From NCBI GenBank assembly GCA_017483185.1, contig JAFULM010000039.1, forward strand, positions 1-41,303: DNA of 41,303 nt. Direction: 5' to 3'. The position numbers and the translations under genes are program-made. Source of the stretch: Prevotella sp. (GTDB lineage: Bacteria > Bacteroidota > Bacteroidia > Bacteroidales > Bacteroidaceae). The notes under the pieces are model-generated. The model had not been told where the DNA came from and did not search any database. It saw nothing but the letters and a program-made list of their open reading frames with translations. This document shows positions 539 through 41,202 of the stretch, in pieces (the stretch's first letter is position 1; each line of letters opens with the position of its first letter).

Positions 539-764
539 ATGCTTACAAATGGCGAAAGTATTCGCTCCGTTGGACATCGGTTAATTGTCCGGCAATATTG
601 CAGGGCTTTTTTTATGCCCTCATTATATCGTATAGGCGGTTGCCATTCCGTAAATGAAATTAGCCCAACGGGTGAAGTCGTCATTTGTAAGCAGCGGGAT
701 GTGCAGCCGCTTTCTGTATCTCCGTGCCGAGCGGAACTCGGCGATGCTTACAAATGATGCAATT
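539..764 (+). promoter_or_regulatory. Structured leader RNA, copy 1 (A/B/C repeats)
   Basis: Seen in the sequence: A = TGCTTACAAATG at 540-551; B = TCATTTGTAAGCA at 681-693; C = TGCTTACAAATGA at 745-757. B and C form a perfect 13-bp stem (15 with a G-U and a C-G pair outside). A is a direct copy of C and can pair with B instead. Inside the B-C loop are two hairpins: GCGG-GATGTGCAG-CCGC (694-710) and GCCGAG-CGGAA-CTCGGC (726-742). Between A and B lies AGGGC-T7AT-GCCCT (602-620). C ends 7 nt before the ATG at 765, so the B:C fold would cover the translation start region, while A:B would free it. Inference: an RNA switch controlling the module genes. Class not recognised. The reading frame through it (ATG at 539) is not kept in copy 2, where the matching frame stops at codon 3. 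Confidence 0.7.
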
Positions 765-1028: not shown

Positions 1029-1399
1029 TATTCATGACAGATTTTTATTCGGCCACAAACTTGCCGGTCTCCTTGGTCTGCGTGACAGACATGATGCGCA
1101 AGGCTGATAACGTCCTGTTTCCCAATAATACGGATTTGGATAGATTCGTGGAGATGTTGGCCGATACACTCAATAGAGACAGGCATCCACGGAGTACCGC
1201 GTATATTGATTTGCATCGTTTGCATAACGGCAAGGGTGGTGTCATCTTGGTTTATAAAAAAGAGAATGATGATGATTCTGTCGTCCGTCTGTCCTATCGC
1301 AAGGTAAAGTCCATTCTTGAGTATGATGCCGATGCTGGAGACATGTTTGATATCAGTGACCGGTTTGTTGATTTATTAGAGGAAGGAGGTGCGTCATGA
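1025..1399 (+). CDS. Module 1 extra gene (124 aa), absent from module 2
   Basis: The ATG overlaps the previous stop (ATGA) and has a strong ribosome binding site, GGAAGGAGG. The protein begins MIFMTDFYSATNLPVS and has a mixed alpha/beta pattern without membrane segments; the middle holds a basic stretch (RDRHPRSTAYIDLHRLHNGKG) and the end is acidic. In module 2 gene 1 leads directly into gene 2, so this gene is an insertion in copy 1 or a deletion from copy 2. It is bounded on both sides by the same ribosome-binding-site/start sequence (about 1011-1028 and 1381-1399). No family recognised. Confidence 0.7.
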   Translation: MIFMTDFYSATNLPVSLVCVTDMMRKADNVLFPNNTDLDRFVEMLADTLNRDRHPRSTAYIDLHRLHNGKGGVILVYKKENDDDSVVRLSYRKVKSILEYDADAGDMFDISDRFVDLLEEGGAS

Positions 1400-1617
1400 G
1401 CGCAACCATCAATCCCGAAGCCTTGGCCGCCGCCCTTGAATTCTGCTATGCAGACGCGCTTGAGAACAACATCCGGCTGATGGAAGAATCCATCGACTTC
1501 ATCATCGACGATGACAGTATCCCAGCCGACGAGCGCATCGACCTCGTATCGGCATACCGGCGTCTCGGCAAGCAATTCCGGAGAATCCACTCATTAATAA
1601 CCGATAAACCCGCATAA
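1396..1617 (+). CDS. Module gene 2 (73 aa), acidic helical protein
   Basis: Starts MSATINPEALAAALEF and overlaps the previous stop by ATGA behind GGAAGGAGG. A soluble, acidic, probably all-helical protein (ALENNIRLMEESIDFI; ERIDLVSAYRRLGKQF). It is the fastest-changing gene of the module: the copy at 19735 differs at about 15 positions and ends three residues earlier. Function unknown; size and charge fit a small regulator or partner-binding protein, which is only inference. Confidence 0.7.
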   Translation: MSATINPEALAAALEFCYADALENNIRLMEESIDFIIDDDSIPADERIDLVSAYRRLGKQFRRIHSLITDKPA

Positions 1618-1619
1618 TC

Positions 1620-1913
1620 ATGGCAAACAATATAACAGACAAAGACAATCGTGACAACAGTTTCGTTACCGACCTTCTTGACGCATACTTTACCCACCGG
1701 CGCAATCTTCCCGGCGAATTCGCCGGCCGTGCGCTCATGGAGGAGCCCAAGAACACCTATGACATCATCGACGACCTTGCGCCCATGACCAACCTGTATG
1801 ATGCCAAGGATGCCGTCGTGAGCTACATGCAGAGCCACGGCTACGGTTTTACGACGTTGGCCGACGGCAGCGTCAAGTGGGCCATCTGGCGAATCGTCGA
1901 AGGTGACTTCTGA
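1620..1913 (+). CDS. Module gene 3 (97 aa), conserved small phage protein
   Basis: Begins 2 nt after the previous stop. The sequence starts MANNITDKDNRDNSF and includes HRRNLPGEFAGRALMEEP and a C-terminal ADGSVKWAIWRIVEGDF. Soluble, acidic, no membrane helix. The second copy at 19961 differs at only 4 of 97 residues, the best-conserved gene of the module, so it is probably under purifying selection in both places. Followed by the GNRA hairpin at 1956. No family recognised. Confidence 0.75.
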   Translation: MANNITDKDNRDNSFVTDLLDAYFTHRRNLPGEFAGRALMEEPKNTYDIIDDLAPMTNLYDAKDAVVSYMQSHGYGFTTLADGSVKWAIWRIVEGDF

Positions 1914-10820: not shown

Positions 10821-13800
10821 ATGATTGAGAATATGACAGAAGGCTGGGCGGGACATACCGGTCAGGAGGTAGAGGACTTTATCAAGGAGCAACTGACATC
10901 GGCAATAACCGGGTCGCGTGACAAGATCGGCTGGATAGACTATACCGCCGGCCGCGTTACGTTCTACGATGAGCAGGGCGGCACGCCTCTTGGCAGTTTC
11001 TCGCTGACCGGCACGGTGTACGCGATAGATCTGGAGTGTGACACGCCGACATCATTTTACATCCTGACGTCGGCAACATCACGCCCTGTCACGGTGCGGC
11101 CGACGACGCAGAGCGGCACGATAGGCGGGTCAATGACGGAGTATGCGGAGGACTACACCTATACGTTTGCGGTAGACAATGGCTCCGGTGTGTTCGTGGA
11201 GCGTGCCTCGGGTAGCTGCCGCGGCGGAGAGAGCCTTGTGGAGGATATCAGGGGCTGGGTGACGGTAGGTGCTAACCGTATCCGCGTGACGGTTACGGGA
11301 GTGAGCAGCCGGCAGTCGCGGTCGCTGGTGTTCTCATGCGTGGTGACGAGCCTGACGCTCCGGAGTGAGTTCGCGTGGTGGCGGCCGTTCGTCGAGGGCA
11401 GCACATACGCCATCGACGGGCTGTTCTTCTCCGGGAACCTGCAGAAGACGCTCTATGTGCGCATCGACGACGACCCGGAGCAGACTTACACGCTGACCTT
11501 CAGCAGCGGCACGAACTACGTCACCACTCCGTACTCGCTTGACCTGTCGTCACGCTTTCCGGCCGGAGGCACGGGCATCCACAAGGTGGAGGTGTGGATG
11601 GCGGGCGACGGTGTTGAGACGCAGCATTACGCATACAGGATCATGTGCGTGGCCAAGGACGACGCCAACAAGGTCTCGCTCGTTTGTGTCAACGAGGTGG
11701 CCGGCAAGGCCGTCAACTACGACACGCAGACGCTCTTTGCATACGCGACGTATAACGCCACGCAGGTTACGTTTGACATCGGAGCGACCGACGGTCTGCG
11801 CGATTACACCGTGGCCGACGGTCAGACCATCTCCGTGCAGACGCAGACGCGGCAGACATATACAACAAAACTTGAGATTGATACGGAGGCATCTGAGGGA
11901 CTTACGCTCAGTGTGGTGGCAGCCGTGAGTGGCAACAGCGAGCAGCTGACAATGGCCGTTGACAACAGCAATTCTTACGCGGCTGTGAGCGGCGCCCGTT
12001 TCTATGCAAATGCCGCCCTGCGTTCCAACGGTGCCGCCGACCGCACCGAGATACTCAACATCGCGGCCGGCGCGGACAAGACATCATACAAGGCGCAGTG
12101 GCAGGGTTTCGCATGGTCCGTGGACGGCTGGGCGGCCGACAGCGACGGCAACCGCTGCCTTTGCGTCAATGCCGGCAGCTCGGTGATAGTTCCGGATCTG
12201 ACGCCGCTGGCTGCGACTGGCGCCTCGTCACTGACGCTCGAAGTCAAGTTCCGTTGTGCGAATATCGCCGACTATGATACGCCGGTGCTGTCGTTCATGA
12301 GCGAGGAAACATACAACGAGGCGACGACGTCAGGCGTCATAATATTCCCGACAAAGATTCTCGTGCTCACAAGCGGTAACCGTCAGGTGGTGCCGCAGTC
12401 CGTCAACCTGACGGAAGATAGGGTGACGCATGCCGTGATAGTGCTGCAGCGCGGATATGGCAACACGGGGCGCAACCTGTGCCACATCTACGTCAATGGA
12501 GTGCGGCAGGCCGTCTTCGAATATGGTGGTAACGTGAGCTTCGGTAACGGCTGTCTGCGCATGGGACAGCCGTCGGCCGACCTCTATCTCTATATGCTGC
12601 GTTACTACGTCGGCCGGGCTTTTGAGTATAGCGACGTGCTGACAAATTTCTTGAATACCATCGTGGACGATGCGGAATATACCCGTGAGGGCGTGCGTAA
12701 GGACAACCGCATCATCGACGGCACGGAGATAAGTTACGAGCTGTGCAAGGCCGCCGGTTACAACCGCATGGTTATCGAGATGCCCGGAGATATAGACATC
12801 CCGAGCGTGGAGAATAACGTCAAGGTGAACTCGTCGGTGACGTTTGAGTACAACGACCATCCGGAATGGAACGTCCGCATCGACAACGCACCGATAGATG
12901 GTCAGGGTACCACCTCAATGAGGTATTACAGGTGGAACGTGCGCTGGAAGCTGAAGGATGCTGCGCTTTTTACCTACGCCGACGGCACTACCGACACCAA
13001 GGAGGGATATATCGCCGGCAAGGGACTGCACCCCAAGGTGTCGAAGATAACGGCCAAAAAAAACTATGCCTCGTCGACACAGGGTCACAAGATGGGAGCG
13101 TGCGGAATGTATGACGAATTGTATGAGCGCGTGGGGCTTAAGGCATCGCTACCATCGGCCGACAACCGCGTAGCTACGTATCAATACCCGTTCATGGGTT
13201 TTCAAAAGTATGCCGATGGTACATACAAGTTCATTGGCCTGTACACGGCGGGACCGGACAAGGGTGACAAGAAGACGTTTGGCTACGACTTCAAAGCATA
13301 CCCCGATTTGCTGCAGATAGAGGGACCTAATCACGCCCCGCTGGCGACGCGGTTCCTTCACCCGTGGCTCGACGTGGAGTATTCGGCCGACGACGAGACG
13401 CTGACCTTCGGCGGTCAGGAGGGCTGGGACGTGAGTGCATGCCGCTACGAGACCGACGATCCGGCCGCTGCAGCCGACATCCTCGCGCTCATGGAGCGTG
13501 AGTGGCGGCCAGCCTACGAGATTGTCTATAACTGCTCACCATATCTGTGTCCACTTGCCGAGGCCGGATATGCCACTCTCGACGCGCTCAATGCCGACGC
13601 CGATGGCTTCCGCCGGCGGAGCGGCATCATCGCCGGTCGTGACAATGGCGTGCTGCAGCTCTACGACAACGATTATAATCTTATATACTACCGTAACAAG
13701 ACGGCGCGCTACGAGGTGCTCGACGGTTTTGACATGATTGGCTATCTCGGCGATTATCTCACTAATAAGACCAATCCTTCAACGGCCGAGATTGTGGCGG

Positions 13801-19173: not shown

Positions 19174-19204
19174 TTTGCCATCCCGATTTTTCTCATTACC
19201 TTTG
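19174..19204 (+). promoter_or_regulatory. Bacteroidota promoter of module 2
   Basis: TTTG at 19174-19177, 19-nt spacer, TACCTTTG at 19197-19204; same as at 505-535. Expected start about 19210, inside repeat A. Confidence 0.8.
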
Positions 19205-19206
19205 CC

Positions 19207-19474
19207 GATGGCTTAAAGATGATAGTTCCTTCTATCCGGATAGAGCACCGTCATGCTCACGCCTTGCGATGGGCTTTTTTATTGCCGTCACGGCAGCGGG
19301 TATCAGTACCCGTATCTTTGTGGGTAATTAGGCGATGCCACGATATAGCGGCTGCCATCTCGTAGATAAATCTGCTCTCCGGAGAAGACTACATCTTTAA
19401 GCCAACGGGATGTGCAGCCGTTTTCTGTATCTCCGCGCCGGCGGAACCGGCGATGGCTTAAAGATGTAGCAATT
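19207..19474 (+). promoter_or_regulatory. Structured leader RNA, copy 2 (A/B/C repeats)
   Basis: A = GATGGCTTAAAGATG (19207-19221); B = CTACATCTTTAAGCCA (19389-19404); C = TGGCTTAAAGATGTAG (19454-19469). B:C is a perfect 16-bp stem; A repeats 16 nt of the C region (19206-19221 and 19451-19466). Inner hairpins: ACGG-GATGTGCAG-CCGT (19405-19421) and GCCGG-CGGAA-CCGGC (19437-19451). The two loops are identical to copy 1 while the stems differ by paired changes. C ends 5 nt before the ATG at 19475. The A-B interval is not alignable with copy 1 except for a GGC-T-rich-GCC hairpin. A TATCTTTG at 19313 could be an internal promoter. Same inferred role as copy 1. Confidence 0.7.
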
Positions 19475-19738
19475 ATGCAACAAAAAGAAATTTCCATCGG
19501 TTGGGCAATGACCCAGCCCGATGTGTCCGCGGCTCTCGACCGCGTGCTTGCGAACATCCGTTCGCTCAGTGACAAATCCAAAACTTGGCTCGACGGCCGC
19601 AGTGAGACATTCACCGCCCTGTGCGGTACCGAGGGCGACACCTTCACCCGCCGTGACGTCGTGCGCGCCCACCTCTATCTCGTGGCCTTGTTCGCAATCG
19701 CATGCGTGGCCGGCTGGCTGGAAGGAGGTGCGTCATGA
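19475..19738 (+). CDS. Module gene 1, copy 2 (87 aa)
   Basis: Starts MQQKEISIGWAMTQPD and ends with one probable membrane helix and GWLEGGAS. It differs from the copy at 765 at residues 2, 16, 41, 42 and 87. The stop overlaps the next start by ATGA behind GGAAGGAGG. Keeping both copies nearly identical while the surrounding leader changes suggests both are expressed. Function unknown. Confidence 0.75.
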   Translation: MQQKEISIGWAMTQPDVSAALDRVLANIRSLSDKSKTWLDGRSETFTALCGTEGDTFTRRDVVRAHLYLVALFAIACVAGWLEGGAS

Positions 19739-19947
19739 GCGCAACCATCAATCCTGAAGCCTTGGCCGCCGTTCTCGAACTCTGCGACGACGATACTCTC
19801 GATACCAACATCCGGCTGATGGAGGACTCCATCGATGCCATCATCGACGAAGACAGTATTCCGGCTGACAATCGTCTCGATCTCGTTTCGGCATACCGGC
19901 GTCTCGGCAAACAGTTCCGGATAATCCAATCATTAATAACCCAATAA
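19735..19947 (+). CDS. Module gene 2, copy 2 (70 aa)
   Basis: MSATINPEALAAVLEL, an acidic helical protein; follows gene 1 directly, with the 124-aa gene of module 1 missing. About 15 differences from the copy at 1396, clustered at residues 13-24, so this part may carry specificity between the two modules. Ends LITQ instead of LITDKPA. Confidence 0.7.
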   Translation: MSATINPEALAAVLELCDDDTLDTNIRLMEDSIDAIIDEDSIPADNRLDLVSAYRRLGKQFRIIQSLITQ

Positions 19948-19960
19948 ACTCCGTATAATC

Positions 19961-20254
19961 ATGGCAACCAATATAACAGACAAAGACAATCGTGACAACA
20001 GTTTCGTTACTGACCTGCTCGACGCCTACTTCACCCACCGGCGCAATCTTCCCGGCGAATTCGCCGGCCGTGCGCTCATGGAGGAGCCCAAGAGCACATA
20101 CGACATAATCGACGACCTTGCGCCTATGGCTAACCTGTATGATGCCAAGGATGCCGTCGTTGGCTACATGCAGAGCCACGGCTACGGCTTTACGACGCTG
20201 GCCGACGGCAGCGTCAAGTGGGCCATCTGGAGAATCGTCGAAGGTGACTTCTGA
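19961..20254 (+). CDS. Module gene 3, copy 2 (97 aa)
   Basis: MATNITDKDNRDNSF; same length as the copy at 1620, with four substitutions (residues 3, 45, 57 and 68 approximately). Begins 13 nt after the gene 2 stop, against 2 nt in module 1. Soluble acidic protein, function unknown. Confidence 0.75.
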   Translation: MATNITDKDNRDNSFVTDLLDAYFTHRRNLPGEFAGRALMEEPKSTYDIIDDLAPMANLYDAKDAVVGYMQSHGYGFTTLADGSVKWAIWRIVEGDF

Positions 20255-20294: not shown

Positions 20295-20324
20295 CGGCCC
20301 GCTGTCTGCGAAGATGGCGGGCCG
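20295..20324 (+). repeat. GNRA-capped hairpin, copy 3 of 3
   Basis: Identical to the copy at 1956-1985, including the GCGA loop. It is followed by GTTGACAAAG without a T-run, so termination here would be weak. Confidence 0.75.
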
Positions 20325-28070: not shown

Positions 28071-28147
28071 TGGTCGGGATGACAAGACTCGAACTTGCGA
28101 CCTCACGCCCCCCAGACGCGTGCGCTAACCAACTGCGCTACATCCCG
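28071..28147 (-). tRNA. tRNA-Pro (anticodon GGG), probable phage attachment site
   Basis: 77 nt including encoded CCA (28071-28073) and discriminator A. Acceptor CGGGATG/CATCCCG is perfect; D-arm GCGC/GCGC; anticodon stem CGCGT/GCGTG (two wobble pairs) around CTGGGGG, giving anticodon GGG with G37 as in proline tRNAs; T-arm GCAAG/CTTGT with TTCGAGT. It reads proline CCC codons (and CCU by wobble). Its 3' end points to the integrase gene, the standard geometry for a phage using a tRNA 3' end as attB. The second att copy is not in this window. Confidence 0.95.
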
Positions 28148-30283: not shown

Positions 30284-33200
30284 GTGAGATATTTGGCTCA
30301 AAGACATATCGTCATGCTTGTCGCAACTACACTTTTGTTCGTCGTGACAGCATGCTCAACGAAAAAGAACACCGCCGGCAGCCGCTGGTGGCACTCGTTC
30401 AATGCCCGTTATAACACTTATTATAACGGCAGTCTCGCCTTTATCGACGGCGCCGAGGAGCAGGAACGTGGCAATAAGGACAATTTTACCGAGATGATAC
30501 CCTTCACGATGGTCGGCAACAAGGCTACCCGCGAAATTGGAAAGTCCAATTTTGACCGTGCCATCGAAAAGTCGGAAAAGACCATCAAGCAACACAGCAT
30601 CAAGCGCCGACCCGAATGGACGAAGTCGAGACGCAAGACGGCCAAGGACATTGAGTGGCTGAGCCGCCGCGAATATAACCCATTCCTCTGGAAGGCGTGG
30701 CTCCTGATGGGCAAGTCGCAATACTTGAAAGGCCAGTTTGACGAAGCCGCCGCGACGTTCTCCTACATGTCCAGGCTTTATGCCACGCAGCCCGCCATCA
30801 ACGGCATCGCCCGTTCGTGGCTCGCCCGCAGCTATACGGAACTGGACTGGCTCTACGACGCGGAAGACGTCCTGACGAAAATGCGTCGCGACACCATCCA
30901 CTATCGCGCGCGGACAGACTGGGACTACGCTCAGGCTGCGTTCTACGTCCGCAGCCACCGATATGAAGAAGCCGTGCCGGCGCTGGCCCGCGTCATCAAG
31001 TATGAGCGTCGCAGGAAGCAGCGTGCCCGCCAGTGGTTTCTCATGGGGCAGATAGAGACGGAGTTGGGACACCGCGAACAGGCTTATCGCGCATATAAGA
31101 AAGTCATCCGCCTGAACCCGCCGTACGAACTGGAATTCAACGCCCGCATTGCCCAGACGGAGGTGATGGCCGCCGGCCGCTCCCGTCAGATGATACGCCG
31201 GCTGCGCCGCATGGCCGCATCGGACAACAACAAGGACTATCTCGATCAGGTCTACTATGCTATCGGTAACATCTACCTCGCCGAGCGCGACACCGCCGCT
31301 GCGATCGGCGCGTACGAGACGGGAAACAAGAAAGCCACGCGAAACGGCATTGAGAAAGGTGTACTGCTGCTCCATCTCGGTAATCTCTATTGGGCGAAGG
31401 AGCGTTACAACGACGCACAGCGGTGTTATGGCGAGGCTATCGGCCTGTTGGACAAGGAGCGCGACGATTATGAGGAACTGTCGGAGCGGTCGAAAGTGCT
31501 CGACGAACTCGTGCCATACACCGATGCTGTCCATCTGCAGGACTCGTTGCAGGTGCTGGCCAAGCTACCCGAGAAAGAGCGCAATGAGGCCATCGACCGT
31601 GTCATCGAGGCTCTGAAGAAAAAAGAACGTGAGGAGAAGCGGGCTGCTCAGGAGGCAGAAGCCGAGAAGACAATACAGCAGCAGAGCGCACAAGGTAACC
31701 GCAACAATACCCCCAAGCCGCCTATGCCTACGCCCGGCGGACAGCAGGGATTGTGGTACTTCTATAATCCGCAGGCCGTCAGCCAGGGCAAGGCCGCTTT
31801 CCAACGACAGTGGGGAAAGCGTGAGAATGTCGACGACTGGCAGCGCGTCAACCGTACAGTGGTCAATCTCAATCCTGCCGACAGTGACGCAGGGGAGGGG
31901 GAAGAACCGACCGACTCCATTGCTGCAGCAGTGGGAGAGGGTGGGGAGGTCGCAACCGACACGTTGGCAACGGACACCGCCGCTGCCGATCCACATACCC
32001 GTGAATACTATCTGGCGCAAATCCCGTTCACGGACGAGCAGAAGGTCGAGAGTGACAACATCATCAAGGACGGCCTGTTCCACTCCGGCGTCATTTTCAA
32101 GGACAAACTCGATAATTTGCCGCTCAGCGAAAAGGCGCTGACGAGGCTCACCGAACAATATCCCGACTATGAACAGACGGACGAAGCATGGTATCATCTC
32201 TTTCTGCTTTACTCCCGAATGGGACGTCACGACATTGCCGCTCGCTGTCTGGAAAGACTGCGTCTGGACCATGCGGAGAGCCAATGGACTACGCTTCTCA
32301 GTGACCCGCACTTTGCGGAAAACGCCCGCTTCGGTGTCCACATAGAGGACTCGCTCTACGCCGCGACGTATGATGCTTTCAAGGCTGACCGCTACGACGA
32401 GGTGAAGACCAACACCCAGTTGTCTGCCGACCGTTTCCCGTTGGGTGCAAACCGTCCCAAATTTATTTTCATCGAAGGCCTGAACCGGCTCAACGAGGGT
32501 GACGCAACGGCCTGCGTGACGGCGATGAAGGAGGTCGTGGAGAAGTATCCGGAAAGCGAAGTGACGGAGATGGCTGGTATGATAATCAAAGGCGTGCAGG
32601 CCGGAAGAGCCTTGTATGGTGGAAAGTTTGATATCGGGGACATCTGGTCGCGTCGTGGTGTTGCAATGGAGGCGGACTCTACGACAACTGACACTCTCAG
32701 TGCGGAACGTAACACGGGCTTTGTCTTCCTCCTGGCCTATCGTGCTGATTCGCTCGATGCCAATCAGTTGCTTTTTGAGATGGCCAAATATAACTTCTCA
32801 AACTTCATGGTCCGCAACTTTGATATCACTCTCGATCAGGACCAAGGCATCAGTCGTATGCTTATCAGCGGCTTCCTCAACTACGACGAAGCACTGCAAT
32901 ATGCTCGTCGTCTCTATGCTGATGAGGCAATGGCGGTCCGTCTCAACGGTTGCCGGCGCATCATAATAAGCGAAAACAACCTCAAAATGCTTGGCACACG
33001 ATATAGCTATGTCGACTATGAGGAGTTTTTTGAGCGGTCATTTGTGCCTCTTGAAATAAGTGACGAGGAACTGCTCAATATCCCCGAAGCAGTTGAGATC
33101 CCGAAGGAAGAAAGCGTAACGGATGACGGCTCAGCACCTGCCGGCAATGCTCCGTCGACACCGCAGATGGATGACATGAATGACCTCGGCCTTCCGCCTG

Positions 33201-33544
33201 CACCTGTCGGCAATGCTCCGTCGACACCGCGGACTGATGATATGAATGACCTCGGCCTTCCGCCTGCACCTGTCGGCAATGCTCCGTCGACGCCGCAGAC
33301 GGATGACATGAATGACCTCGGCCTTCCGCCTGCACCTGTCGGCAATGCTCTGTCGACACCACAGACGGATGACATGAATGACCTCGGTCTTCCGCCAGCA
33401 CCTGCCGGCAATGCTCCGTCGACATCGCAGACAGATGACATGGATGATTTGGGATTGCCGCAGAATATCGGTGGAGCAAATAACAATACAAACAACGAAC
33501 CGCCGGCCGACGTGTTCGACTTTGATGAGGATTTTTACAGATGA
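30284..33544 (+). CDS. porW: Gliding/T9SS lipoprotein PorW/SprE (1086 aa)
   Basis: A lipoprotein with TPR repeats needed for type IX secretion in Porphyromonas (PorW) and gliding in Flavobacterium (SprE). GTG at 30284 is chosen because it is in frame with a lipoprotein signal; an ATG at 30314 (MLVATTLLFVVTACST) is the alternative and also leaves the full signal. Lipobox VTAC. Family signature right after: STKKN, then WWHSFNARYNTYYNGSLAF. TPR-like helices follow from about 120 to 400 and 620-800. A low-complexity spacer lies near 440-560. The C-terminus carries five tandem 22-residue repeats (see 33134). It overlaps porX by ATGA; PorX binds the secretion machinery through PorW's system. Confidence 0.9.
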   Translation: MRYLAQRHIVMLVATTLLFVVTACSTKKNTAGSRWWHSFNARYNTYYNGSLAFIDGAEEQERGNKDNFTEMIPFTMVGNKATREIGKSNFDRAIEKSEKTIKQHSIKRRPEWTKSRRKTAKDIEWLSRREYNPFLWKAWLLMGKSQYLKGQFDEAAATFSYMSRLYATQPAINGIARSWLARSYTELDWLYDAEDVLTKMRRDTIHYRARTDWDYAQAAFYVRSHRYEEAVPALARVIKYERRRKQRARQWFLMGQIETELGHREQAYRAYKKVIRLNPPYELEFNARIAQTEVMAAGRSRQMIRRLRRMAASDNNKDYLDQVYYAIGNIYLAERDTAAAIGAYETGNKKATRNGIEKGVLLLHLGNLYWAKERYNDAQRCYGEAIGLLDKERDDYEELSERSKVLDELVPYTDAVHLQDSLQVLAKLPEKERNEAIDRVIEALKKKEREEKRAAQEAEAEKTIQQQSAQGNRNNTPKPPMPTPGGQQGLWYFYNPQAVSQGKAAFQRQWGKRENVDDWQRVNRTVVNLNPADSDAGEGEEPTDSIAAAVGEGGEVATDTLATDTAAADPHTREYYLAQIPFTDEQKVESDNIIKDGLFHSGVIFKDKLDNLPLSEKALTRLTEQYPDYEQTDEAWYHLFLLYSRMGRHDIAARCLERLRLDHAESQWTTLLSDPHFAENARFGVHIEDSLYAATYDAFKADRYDEVKTNTQLSADRFPLGANRPKFIFIEGLNRLNEGDATACVTAMKEVVEKYPESEVTEMAGMIIKGVQAGRALYGGKFDIGDIWSRRGVAMEADSTTTDTLSAERNTGFVFLLAYRADSLDANQLLFEMAKYNFSNFMVRNFDITLDQDQGISRMLISGFLNYDEALQYARRLYADEAMAVRLNGCRRIIISENNLKMLGTRYSYVDYEEFFERSFVPLEISDEELLNIPEAVEIPKEESVTDDGSAPAGNAPSTPQMDDMNDLGLPPAPVGNAPSTPRTDDMNDLGLPPAPVGNAPSTPQTDDMNDLGLPPAPVGNALSTPQTDDMNDLGLPPAPAGNAPSTSQTDDMDDLGLPQNIGGANNNTNNEPPADVFDFDEDFYR
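33134..33463 (+). repeat. Five tandem 66-bp repeats at the 3' end of porW
   Basis: Units start at 33134, 33200, 33266, 33332 and 33398. Each encodes A-P-[VA]-G-N-A-P-S-T-P-Q-T-D-D-M-N-D-L-G-L-P-P. Units 2-4 are near-identical at DNA level, so copy number is likely to vary between strains. Confidence 0.95.
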
Positions 33545-40279: not shown

Positions 40280-40352
40280 CGAAACGGGAAGAAAATAAGG
40301 ATCATCCGACATTTGGAGTGATTTGGAGTGATATTTCAAATAAAACCAATAT

Positions 40353-40455
40353 ACCAACCTCATTTGGAAGTCTTTATGTGGGCTAATCTCAGTCCCCTCC
40401 TTTCGAAGGAGGGGACTGAGATTAGCCCACATAAAGACTTCCAAATGAGGTTGGT
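40353..40455. repeat. Perfect 50-bp inverted repeat (103-bp palindrome)
   Basis: Arms 40353-40402 and 40406-40455 are perfectly complementary around TCG. The sequence runs from ACCAACCTCATTTGG inward to CAGTCCCCTCCTT. A diverged half copy lies at about 41130-41168. No ORF. The rest of 40217-40559 holds the dnaE promoter and two direct ATTTGGAGTG copies at 40314-40330. It may be a palindromic mobile element or a strong terminator between the two minus-strand genes. Confidence 0.85.
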
Positions 40456-40559
40456 GTGTTGATGTAAACTGAGATAAAGATGTGTAATTCGTTACTCCAG
40501 CTGTCGGATGAACCTAAAATAAACAGGAACAGCCGTCGGACCGCCTCGCCTGCCGTGCG

Positions 40560-40973: not shown

Positions 40974-41129
40974 AATCTTCGTTTTTATGTTATTGATAAT
41001 AGAATATTCATTCACCGCCATTCACCGCCATTCCCGTCACGTCGGAGTATGGGCACAGCTGGCCATTCAGGCACGTTCGAGGGTGTAGCAAAATCATTGG
41101 ATTGTAGGGACGAGGGTGTTGCAGAACTC

Positions 41130-41168
41130 ACATGGAAGCCTTTAAGTGGGGTAATCTTAGTCCCCTCC
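41130..41168. repeat. Diverged half copy of the 50-bp inverted repeat
   Basis: CACATGGAAGCCTTTAAGTG then GGGTAATCTTAGTCCCCTCC. Compare 40360-40400: CATTTGGAAGTCTTTATGTG then GGCTAATCTCAGTCCCCTCC. One arm only. Confidence 0.75.
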
Positions 41169-41202
41169 TTCTATGTTGCTATCCAAATAATTGGATAAGT
41201 TT

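Follow-up and report, generated by a model that had tools for sequence, protein, structure and literature searches.

The difference in immunity between phages P1 and P7 rests on the pairing of a leader-encoded antisense RNA with its targets, and the mRNAs of hok-type systems display coupled three-way covariation, in which one strand has two alternative partners. For P4, PMC4825925 describes a CI RNA that causes termination through pairing with seqA on its upstream side and seqC on its downstream side; the same paper presents the IsrK/Gifsy-1 prophage leader, which is both an sRNA and an mRNA and acts on the antirepressor operon. As stated in PMC8198154, full repression of ant requires C4 RNA, and Icd inhibits cell division. 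PMC7567579 lists P1, P7, N15, P4, and phiR73 as phages or satellites that have such RNAs and refers to a 1996 paper about the immunity-specificity determinants of phiR73, while PMC2864571 gives the range of C4 as Proteobacteria and phages. In the P1 record AF234172, the order is promoter, a1/b1 targets, c4 RNA, a2/b2 targets, icd, and ant1, with icd comprising 74 codons including the stop and overlapping ant1 by 4 nt. A triple detector, which seeks only a word, its reverse complement, and the word again (A, B, and C below), recovers a1/a'/a2 and b1/b'/b2 in P1; in P4 it recovers one 8-nt and one 7-nt triple, with about 190-220 nt between A and B and about 30-80 nt between B and C. As a positive control, the Rfam C4 family (RF01695, clan CL00128) scored 68.8 bits on P1 and 74.9 bits on P4, and RF01394 matches beside P4's C4.

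The leader RNA described here constitutes a new RNA family and is most likely the Bacteroidales form of this known phage strategy. Two copies lie in the window, i.e., the whole 41,303-nt stretch analysed (Prevotella sp., assembly GCA_017483185.1, contig JAFULM010000039.1), which belongs to a 2.47-Mb genome of 61 contigs. From 1 to about 27950 the window looks like a prophage, judging by tail-protein and integrase Pfam matches, and a tRNA lies at 28074-28147. Further along are a 66-nt tandem repeat at 33134-33463 (seen as four 132-nt matches that overlap, each offset by 66 nt), inside a long ORF at 30284-33544, and a long inverted repeat at 40332-40476 with 71-nt arms, 89% complementary and 3 nt apart, one arm of which recurs at 41127-41171. 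The latter gave a sub-threshold Rfam microRNA match and is more likely a transposon-like hairpin.

Leader copy 1 occupies 540-764 and copy 2 occupies 19209-19474, directly before start codons at 765 and 19475; all features are on the plus strand. Each copy has a TTTG-N19-TACCTTTG promoter upstream and a cassette of small ORFs downstream, the latter closed by a GGCCCGC/GCGGGCC inverted repeat (1957-1984 and 20296-20323) that is a likely terminator. The promoters (505-535, with TTTG at 505-508, 19 nt, and TACCTTTG at 528-535; 19174-19204, with TTTG at 19174-19177 and TACCTTTG at 19197-19204) are of the Bacteroidales type. In copy 1, element A (TGCTTACAAATG, 540-551) lies at the predicted 5' end of the transcript and is adjoined by a GCGAA/TTCGC hairpin (552-565), followed by a GGACA/TGTCC hairpin (572-590) and a GGGC-UUUUUUUAU-GCCC hairpin with a conserved U-rich loop (603-619); similar hairpins are apparent by eye in relatives. 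Next come the 5' strand of a long helix spanning B (636-651), a small GCCC/GGGT hairpin (663-673), and element B (682-693), the reverse complement of A and C and the putative antisense segment. The 3' strand of the long helix (694-710) also harbours the hairpin GCGG-GATGTGCAG-CCGC, a competitor for CCGC, and is followed by a U-rich tract (711-720) predicted to be terminator-like, by a second hairpin, GCCGAG-CGGAA-CTCGGC (726-742), that is absent from some members, and by element C (745-756), which forms 13 bp with B when the next base is counted and stands 8 nt from the start codon. The long helix was delineated by covariation, which was also measured for B, the second hairpin, and C; A, B, and C were assessed by the swap test described below. 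In copy 2, A is TGGCTTAAAGATG (19209-19221), B lies at 19389-19404, and C at 19454-19469; a covariance-model search matched 635-767 and 19347-19477. All strings quoted in the sequence-only reading that had singled out this leader are present where that reading placed them, in both copies; it had missed the promoter that puts A at the transcript 5' end, the position of C at the ribosome-binding region, the helix around B, and the P4/P1 plan. The 40-50 nt directly before A, comprising a terminator and the promoter (within 480-540), recur elsewhere in the same genome (L005-L009), where the genes behind them are unrelated and one encodes a small secreted-looking protein with a hairpin leader of its own. 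Proteins like that behind L005-L007, with a signal-like N-terminus and a YCNIVGYNFWG-type motif, also occur by eye directly upstream of some phage leaders (L086, 1077-1505; L154, 8122-8496).

Relatives were collected in several ways. When the leader and first ORF were searched as DNA against 299 genomes of the genus, 31 had matches, of which about half were short or no more than promoter-like, and the triple detector found exact triples in most of the resulting loci and in viral contigs fetched via a downstream protein. R1, a covariance model built on the stretch from B to C, matched 16 of 399 genomes of the family (8 of 30 genera). Degenerate patterns contributed 15 named genome contigs plus 27, 1, 14, and 20 viral stretches, some of them overlapping. 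R1 was then run on 96 loci, a set that left out repeats of the same element as well as L061 (itself a family member, at 62.7 bits), and gave 96 hits from 92 loci. Among the four loci without a hit (L014, L015, L016, and L121), L015 and L016 have the triple, B and C being further apart, and L121 was discarded as a chance pattern match within a gene. With one truncated hit (L140) dropped, the remaining 95 reduce to 85 distinct cores, of which IMG/VR supplied 46 and genomes 39. They come from phages, prophages, and plasmid-like elements of Bacteroidales; 83 of these served for tests of A, with L087 and L130 having no upstream DNA. Two kinds of variant were observed: L015, L016, and L017 have 70-130 extra nt between B and C, with a weak model match (15.7-16.2 bits) and the triple retained in L016 and L017, and L020 (genome G272) and L054 (G625) have three tandem leaders that differ in tag and are spaced a few hundred nt from one another, the ORFs between them being shortened or fused.

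A second model, R2, matched 33 of 398 genomes of the genus, 7 of 393 genomes of the order (6 of 206 genera), and, in a phylum sample of 198 genomes, the window's own genome only; given this near absence from the phylum sample, R2 is specific and the family seems, within what was sampled, to be restricted to Bacteroidales. The sequence-only reading recognised no known RNA class, and this was borne out: no Rfam 15 family matches the element in the window or 12 relative loci at E up to 1. Four matches were set aside: mir-6644 in the window and PrrB_RsmZ in L053 (both below the gathering score and off the element), c4-2 at L145:2451-2530 (27.9 of 41 bits, badly paired, and off the element), and BTnc005 at L107:7153-7257 (26.8 of 174.8 bits, off the element). 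The cassette had no blastn match in phage or plasmid collections; three leaders, the 506-aa protein behind L071, and a 345-aa structural protein had none in the named phage and plasmid collections. For protein P0001, the pattern method returned no relative in viral or genome contigs, although relatives exist. A literature search, covering titles and abstract openings and few subscription journals, found no paper describing this RNA.

The central observation is that one sequence of 10-23 nt, the tag, is present as A, as its reverse complement B, and as C in all 83 members with upstream DNA, yet differs between members (75 distinct 14-mers, taken at the C ends, among the 83). In the B:C helix, changes on both sides occur at 12 of 12 modelled pairs, with 99.6% of cells paired. 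Over the entire alignment (A2, 86 distinct rows), 96.2% of cells are paired versus 69.2% in shuffles, 483 cells are changed on both sides versus 129, and the covariation score is 0.634 versus 0.160, with 0 of 500 shuffles reaching the observed score and slid versions scoring at most 0.136. As A2 was fitted to its structure, the alignment-free swap test carries more weight. There, B against a member's own C scored 15.5 on average (minimum 10) versus 6.0 (maximum 14) against the C of another member, and B against its own A scored 14.3 (minimum 10) versus 7.6 when swapped (maximum 14), for the same 83 members; swapped trials reached 12 in 10 of 984 cases for B:C and 9 of 984 for A:B. Own A:B scores were at least 12 in 77 members and 10-11 in the other six. 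The sequence-only reading had claimed that selection acts on pairing among A, B, and C and had called for a covariation test, which proved strongly positive; bar single weak members, neither fixed A, B, and C sequences, nor lost pairing, nor an absence of covarying pairs was encountered.

Additional support comes from a held-out test. R2 holds B and C without A, so that the presence of A could be scored independently in 20 newly fetched loci, those seen earlier having been left out and two (L144 and L182) not being parsed. A was present at a score of at least 13 in 15 of the 18 parsed loci (12 of 12 from the genus search and 3 of 6 from the order search), and was not found in L145, L146, and L147. 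Own A scored 13-17 at these 15 loci, as opposed to mostly 5-9 for swapped upstream regions, 3 of 306 of which reached 12 or 13. The long repeats shared by the window's two copies might, on their own, have reflected chance or the mere shared ancestry of two duplicated cassettes; this explanation, whose probability is negligible, is refuted by the 83 members with different tags, the covariation, and the held-out A.

The positions and the residual mismatches of the three copies are likewise informative. Upstream of A, TAnnTTTG ends 3-5 nt away in 71 of 83 members, with TTG 15-26 nt further upstream in 78 of 80 members tested, and the helix of C stops 4 nt short of ATG in 61 of 85 members (2-7 nt in 81 of 85). 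In the spans shared, Watson-Crick pairing on both sides accounts for 1150 of 1182 cells, and the other 32 comprise 26 with G.U only and 6 mismatched; departures from B are commoner in A than in C. Under simple models the G.U excess has p values from 3e-15 to 6e-11, which are too favourable since helix scoring penalises mismatches. Because G.U pairs occur in RNA only, these departures favour RNA-RNA contact and speak against DNA repeats as such. They thus count against a mobile RNA for which A and C would be target-site duplications and B a guide, a very improbable scenario that takes its appeal from A and C being direct repeats around a conserved unit, both matched by B. Such an element would also have to explain why A always follows a promoter and C always precedes a start codon, and no recombinase or reverse transcriptase is shared next to the RNA (1 integrase among 48 downstream proteins compared with Pfam and PHROGs). 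Taken together, the sequence comparisons show selection for pairing, at the RNA level, between B and each of A and C: the tag is replaced between members, and the three copies stay matched.

The tag also changes quickly. With the A-to-C stretch minus the tags taken as flank, the 13 pairs of members whose flank difference is 0-3% show an 18% difference in B, a ratio of 9.6, and the 32 pairs at 3-6% show one of 26%, a ratio of 5.4; in these comparisons helix-length differences count as distance, pairs are non-independent, and identical cores were collapsed beforehand. Restriction to B elements of equal length leaves 5 and 14 pairs, with B differences of 16% and 27%. Among close relatives, B thus diverges about 5-10 times faster than the surrounding RNA, as would be expected if new specificities are selected for, if some mechanism rewrites the three copies, or if both apply. 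The window's two cassettes share 91-94% of their coding DNA and have different tags; by eye, the copy-2 leader is closer to those of L029, L034, and L071 than to copy 1, a resemblance that suggests exchange of leaders. Co-resident copies, in 20 directed comparisons, cross-match with scores of at most 10 versus 10-20 for their own, a result that does not prove avoidance since random element pairs also rarely cross-match (20 of 2000 reach 12).

Around B, the conserved long helix pairs GCGGYTGCCAUUCCG before B with CGGGAUGUGCAGCCGY after it. It has 94.4% of cells paired and 66 cells changed on both sides versus 7.8 in shuffles, with 0 of 500 shuffles reaching it, while the number of further pair types is not above shuffles (399 of 500). 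This helix would hold B in an apical loop with the U-rich tract next to it, a tract with at least 6 T of 9 in 69 of 85 members and interrupted by C residues in most. The two extra helices proposed by the sequence-only reading are both present as quoted and fared differently. The first, with GCGG/CCGC in copy 1 and ACGG/CCGT in copy 2 around GATGTGCAG (columns 88-91/108-111), holds and covaries, with 98.5% of cells paired and an outer pair that is A-U in 52, G-C in 28, G-U in 3, and otherwise in 3; its 3' side belongs also to the long helix spanning B. Since both helices use the same CCGC/CCGU strand and both covary, they would be alternatives or parts of a pseudoknot. The second, with GCCGAG/CTCGGC in copy 1 and GCCGG/CCGGC in copy 2 around CGGAA, is only partly conserved, with 84.4% of cells paired over 2 modelled pairs and no counterpart found in several distant members.

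RNAfold pairs A with B in 82 of 83 RNAs ending at B, and in 77 of 83 RNAs ending after the U tract, where the long helix forms in only 6 of 83; at full length it predicts A:B in 43 of 83 and B:C in 25 of 83. Given this preference for A:B, a free B loop is not predicted by simple folding, and a terminator-like form is not claimed to be dominant. A switch acting only in cis could draw on such folds: A and C compete for B, with A:B forming first, so that A:B and B:C would be alternative states turning translation on or off under the control of a ligand, a protein, or transcription speed, and the tag would drift by compensation without any role in specificity. The full-length folds are split in just this way, and G.U intermediates exist, as in drifting helices. 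Drift, however, does not account for a tag that changes 5-10 times faster than its surroundings, nor for perfect matches among three strands, and between A and B the length is variable and no conserved pocket is obvious. We therefore regard an exclusively cis-acting switch as unlikely.

Turning to the genes behind the leader, copy 1 is followed by a first ORF of 87 aa with a hydrophobic C-terminal stretch (765-1028; no Pfam or PHROGs match at 0.1), a second of 124 aa (1025-1399), and a third of 73 aa (1396-1617), each overlapping its predecessor by 4 nt, and by a fourth of 97 aa (1620-1913) with relatives in 7 viral loci. Copy 2 is followed by a first ORF of 87 aa (19475-19738) that is 94% identical to that of copy 1, and by second and third ORFs at 19735-19947 and 19961-20254. 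First ORFs are complete in 78 of 85 members; of these, 71 are at most 110 aa long, 63 contain a hydrophobic stretch (by a crude Kyte-Doolittle cut-off), and 56 end in ATGA or GTGA, and 59 first ORFs begin with MQ. Among 48 first downstream proteins scanned against Pfam and PHROGs, no family emerged, the sole strong match being an integrase behind L110, where, within 10840-11902, the leader lies before a tyrosine recombinase gene. With the first gene placed in no known family, the gene itself gives no grounds for an immunity function.

In a few members, the downstream genes would fit antisense control of the P4/P1 kind. In L159 (the L029 element), the leader is followed by a Rep_3 initiator, DnaB, and ParA according to Pfam, with the Rep_3 protein having distant matches in 134 plasmid records, and Rep-DnaB-like operons are apparent by eye behind the leaders of L078, L071, L073, and L031. 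The leader of L145, whose A is poor, precedes a 77-aa AntA antirepressor fragment (E 3.4e-12); it is a variant (1277-1620, minus strand) in which C reaches the start codon. The settings of L152 and L156 are not phage-like from the ORFs listed. These genes bear on the idea of a module resembling type I toxin-antitoxin systems, in which the first gene would encode a small toxic membrane protein held down by the B RNA, with the tag keeping neighbours independent, much as in hok-type mRNAs with their coupled changes. The short, hydrophobic first ORFs would suit such a protein, and the tandem leaders of G272 and G625, which differ in tag, would suit such independence. Replication, integrase, or antirepressor genes follow some leaders instead, and the antisense segment lies on the same transcript rather than on the opposite strand; we accordingly give this idea little credence, noting that, since icd of P1 also harms the cell, it overlaps with antisense control.

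The reading that we favour is that the leader is probably an antisense control module of the P4/C4 type, different in sequence and structure, that confers on each element a silencing specificity of its own. Transcription would start at or beside A. A B-containing RNA would either be released by processing or terminate at the U tract that follows the long helix, whose loop would present B, and would then pair in trans with the A and C elements of new transcripts. This pairing would block translation of the first gene and hence of the coupled genes behind it, and may also end transcription early. A:B pairing within the same molecule would represent the other state, with C left free. An element would thus silence only transcripts bearing its own tag, making the tag a specificity code, i.e., an immunity or incompatibility group, and such a code would account for quick tag change and for neighbouring copies with different tags.

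A more far-reaching proposal, offered tentatively and with the odds somewhat against it, is that the tag serves Bacteroidales phages and plasmid-like elements as a code for self-recognition and is rapidly rewritten. Each element would silence only those that share its tag, as in superinfection immunity or incompatibility, new tags would be favoured, and copying between the inverted copies, akin to template switching, would rewrite A, B, and C together, with specificity groups turning over far faster than phage genes. For plasmid-like elements, a leader before a Rep-DnaB(-ParA) operon would be a determinant of copy number or incompatibility. The tag sequence would allow one to predict which prophages and plasmid-like elements silence one another, and the dominant order of the gut and rumen would offer dozens of natural specificities. 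The leader also offers a natural case of three-way coupled change that is fast enough for the study of compensatory evolution.

Ultimately, the plan of P4/P1-type antisense immunity, known from phages and satellites of Proteobacteria, recurs across Bacteroidales in an RNA of its own. The changes coupled across three strands recall hok-type mRNAs; there, however, the antisense gene lies on the opposite strand, and pairing within the mRNA controls its ripening. The IsrK/Gifsy-1 leader (RF01394) has no sequence match to the element. With the P4 CI RNA (RF01695), the element has in common an antisense segment between two complementary targets of one leader, found here in 83 of 83 members at a score of at least 10, and P4 holds its own replication genes in check, just as some leaders here precede Rep-DnaB operons. 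P4 is enterobacterial and uses two tags of 7-8 nt, in contrast to one continuous tag of 10-23 nt in Bacteroidales hosts. With the C4 of P1/P7, it shares the succession of promoter, targets, antisense segment, targets, and a small ORF overlapping the next by 4 nt; the downstream target lies before a small coupled ORF, as seen from the position of C, the ORF lengths, and the ATGA/GTGA ends. Control of ant may have a parallel in the one relative that precedes an AntA fragment. The two differ in sequence and structure and in having one long tag versus two short ones, the separate antisense segments a' and b' of the C4 family being replaced by a single continuous segment, and the downstream genes here are mostly unassigned. 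At E up to 1, RF01695 matches nothing in the window or 12 relatives, and R2 against P1 and P4 reaches at best 7.8 bits (E 2.1), which is no match. By the tests made, the element is not a member of the C4 family, but it probably works like P4/P1 antisense control.
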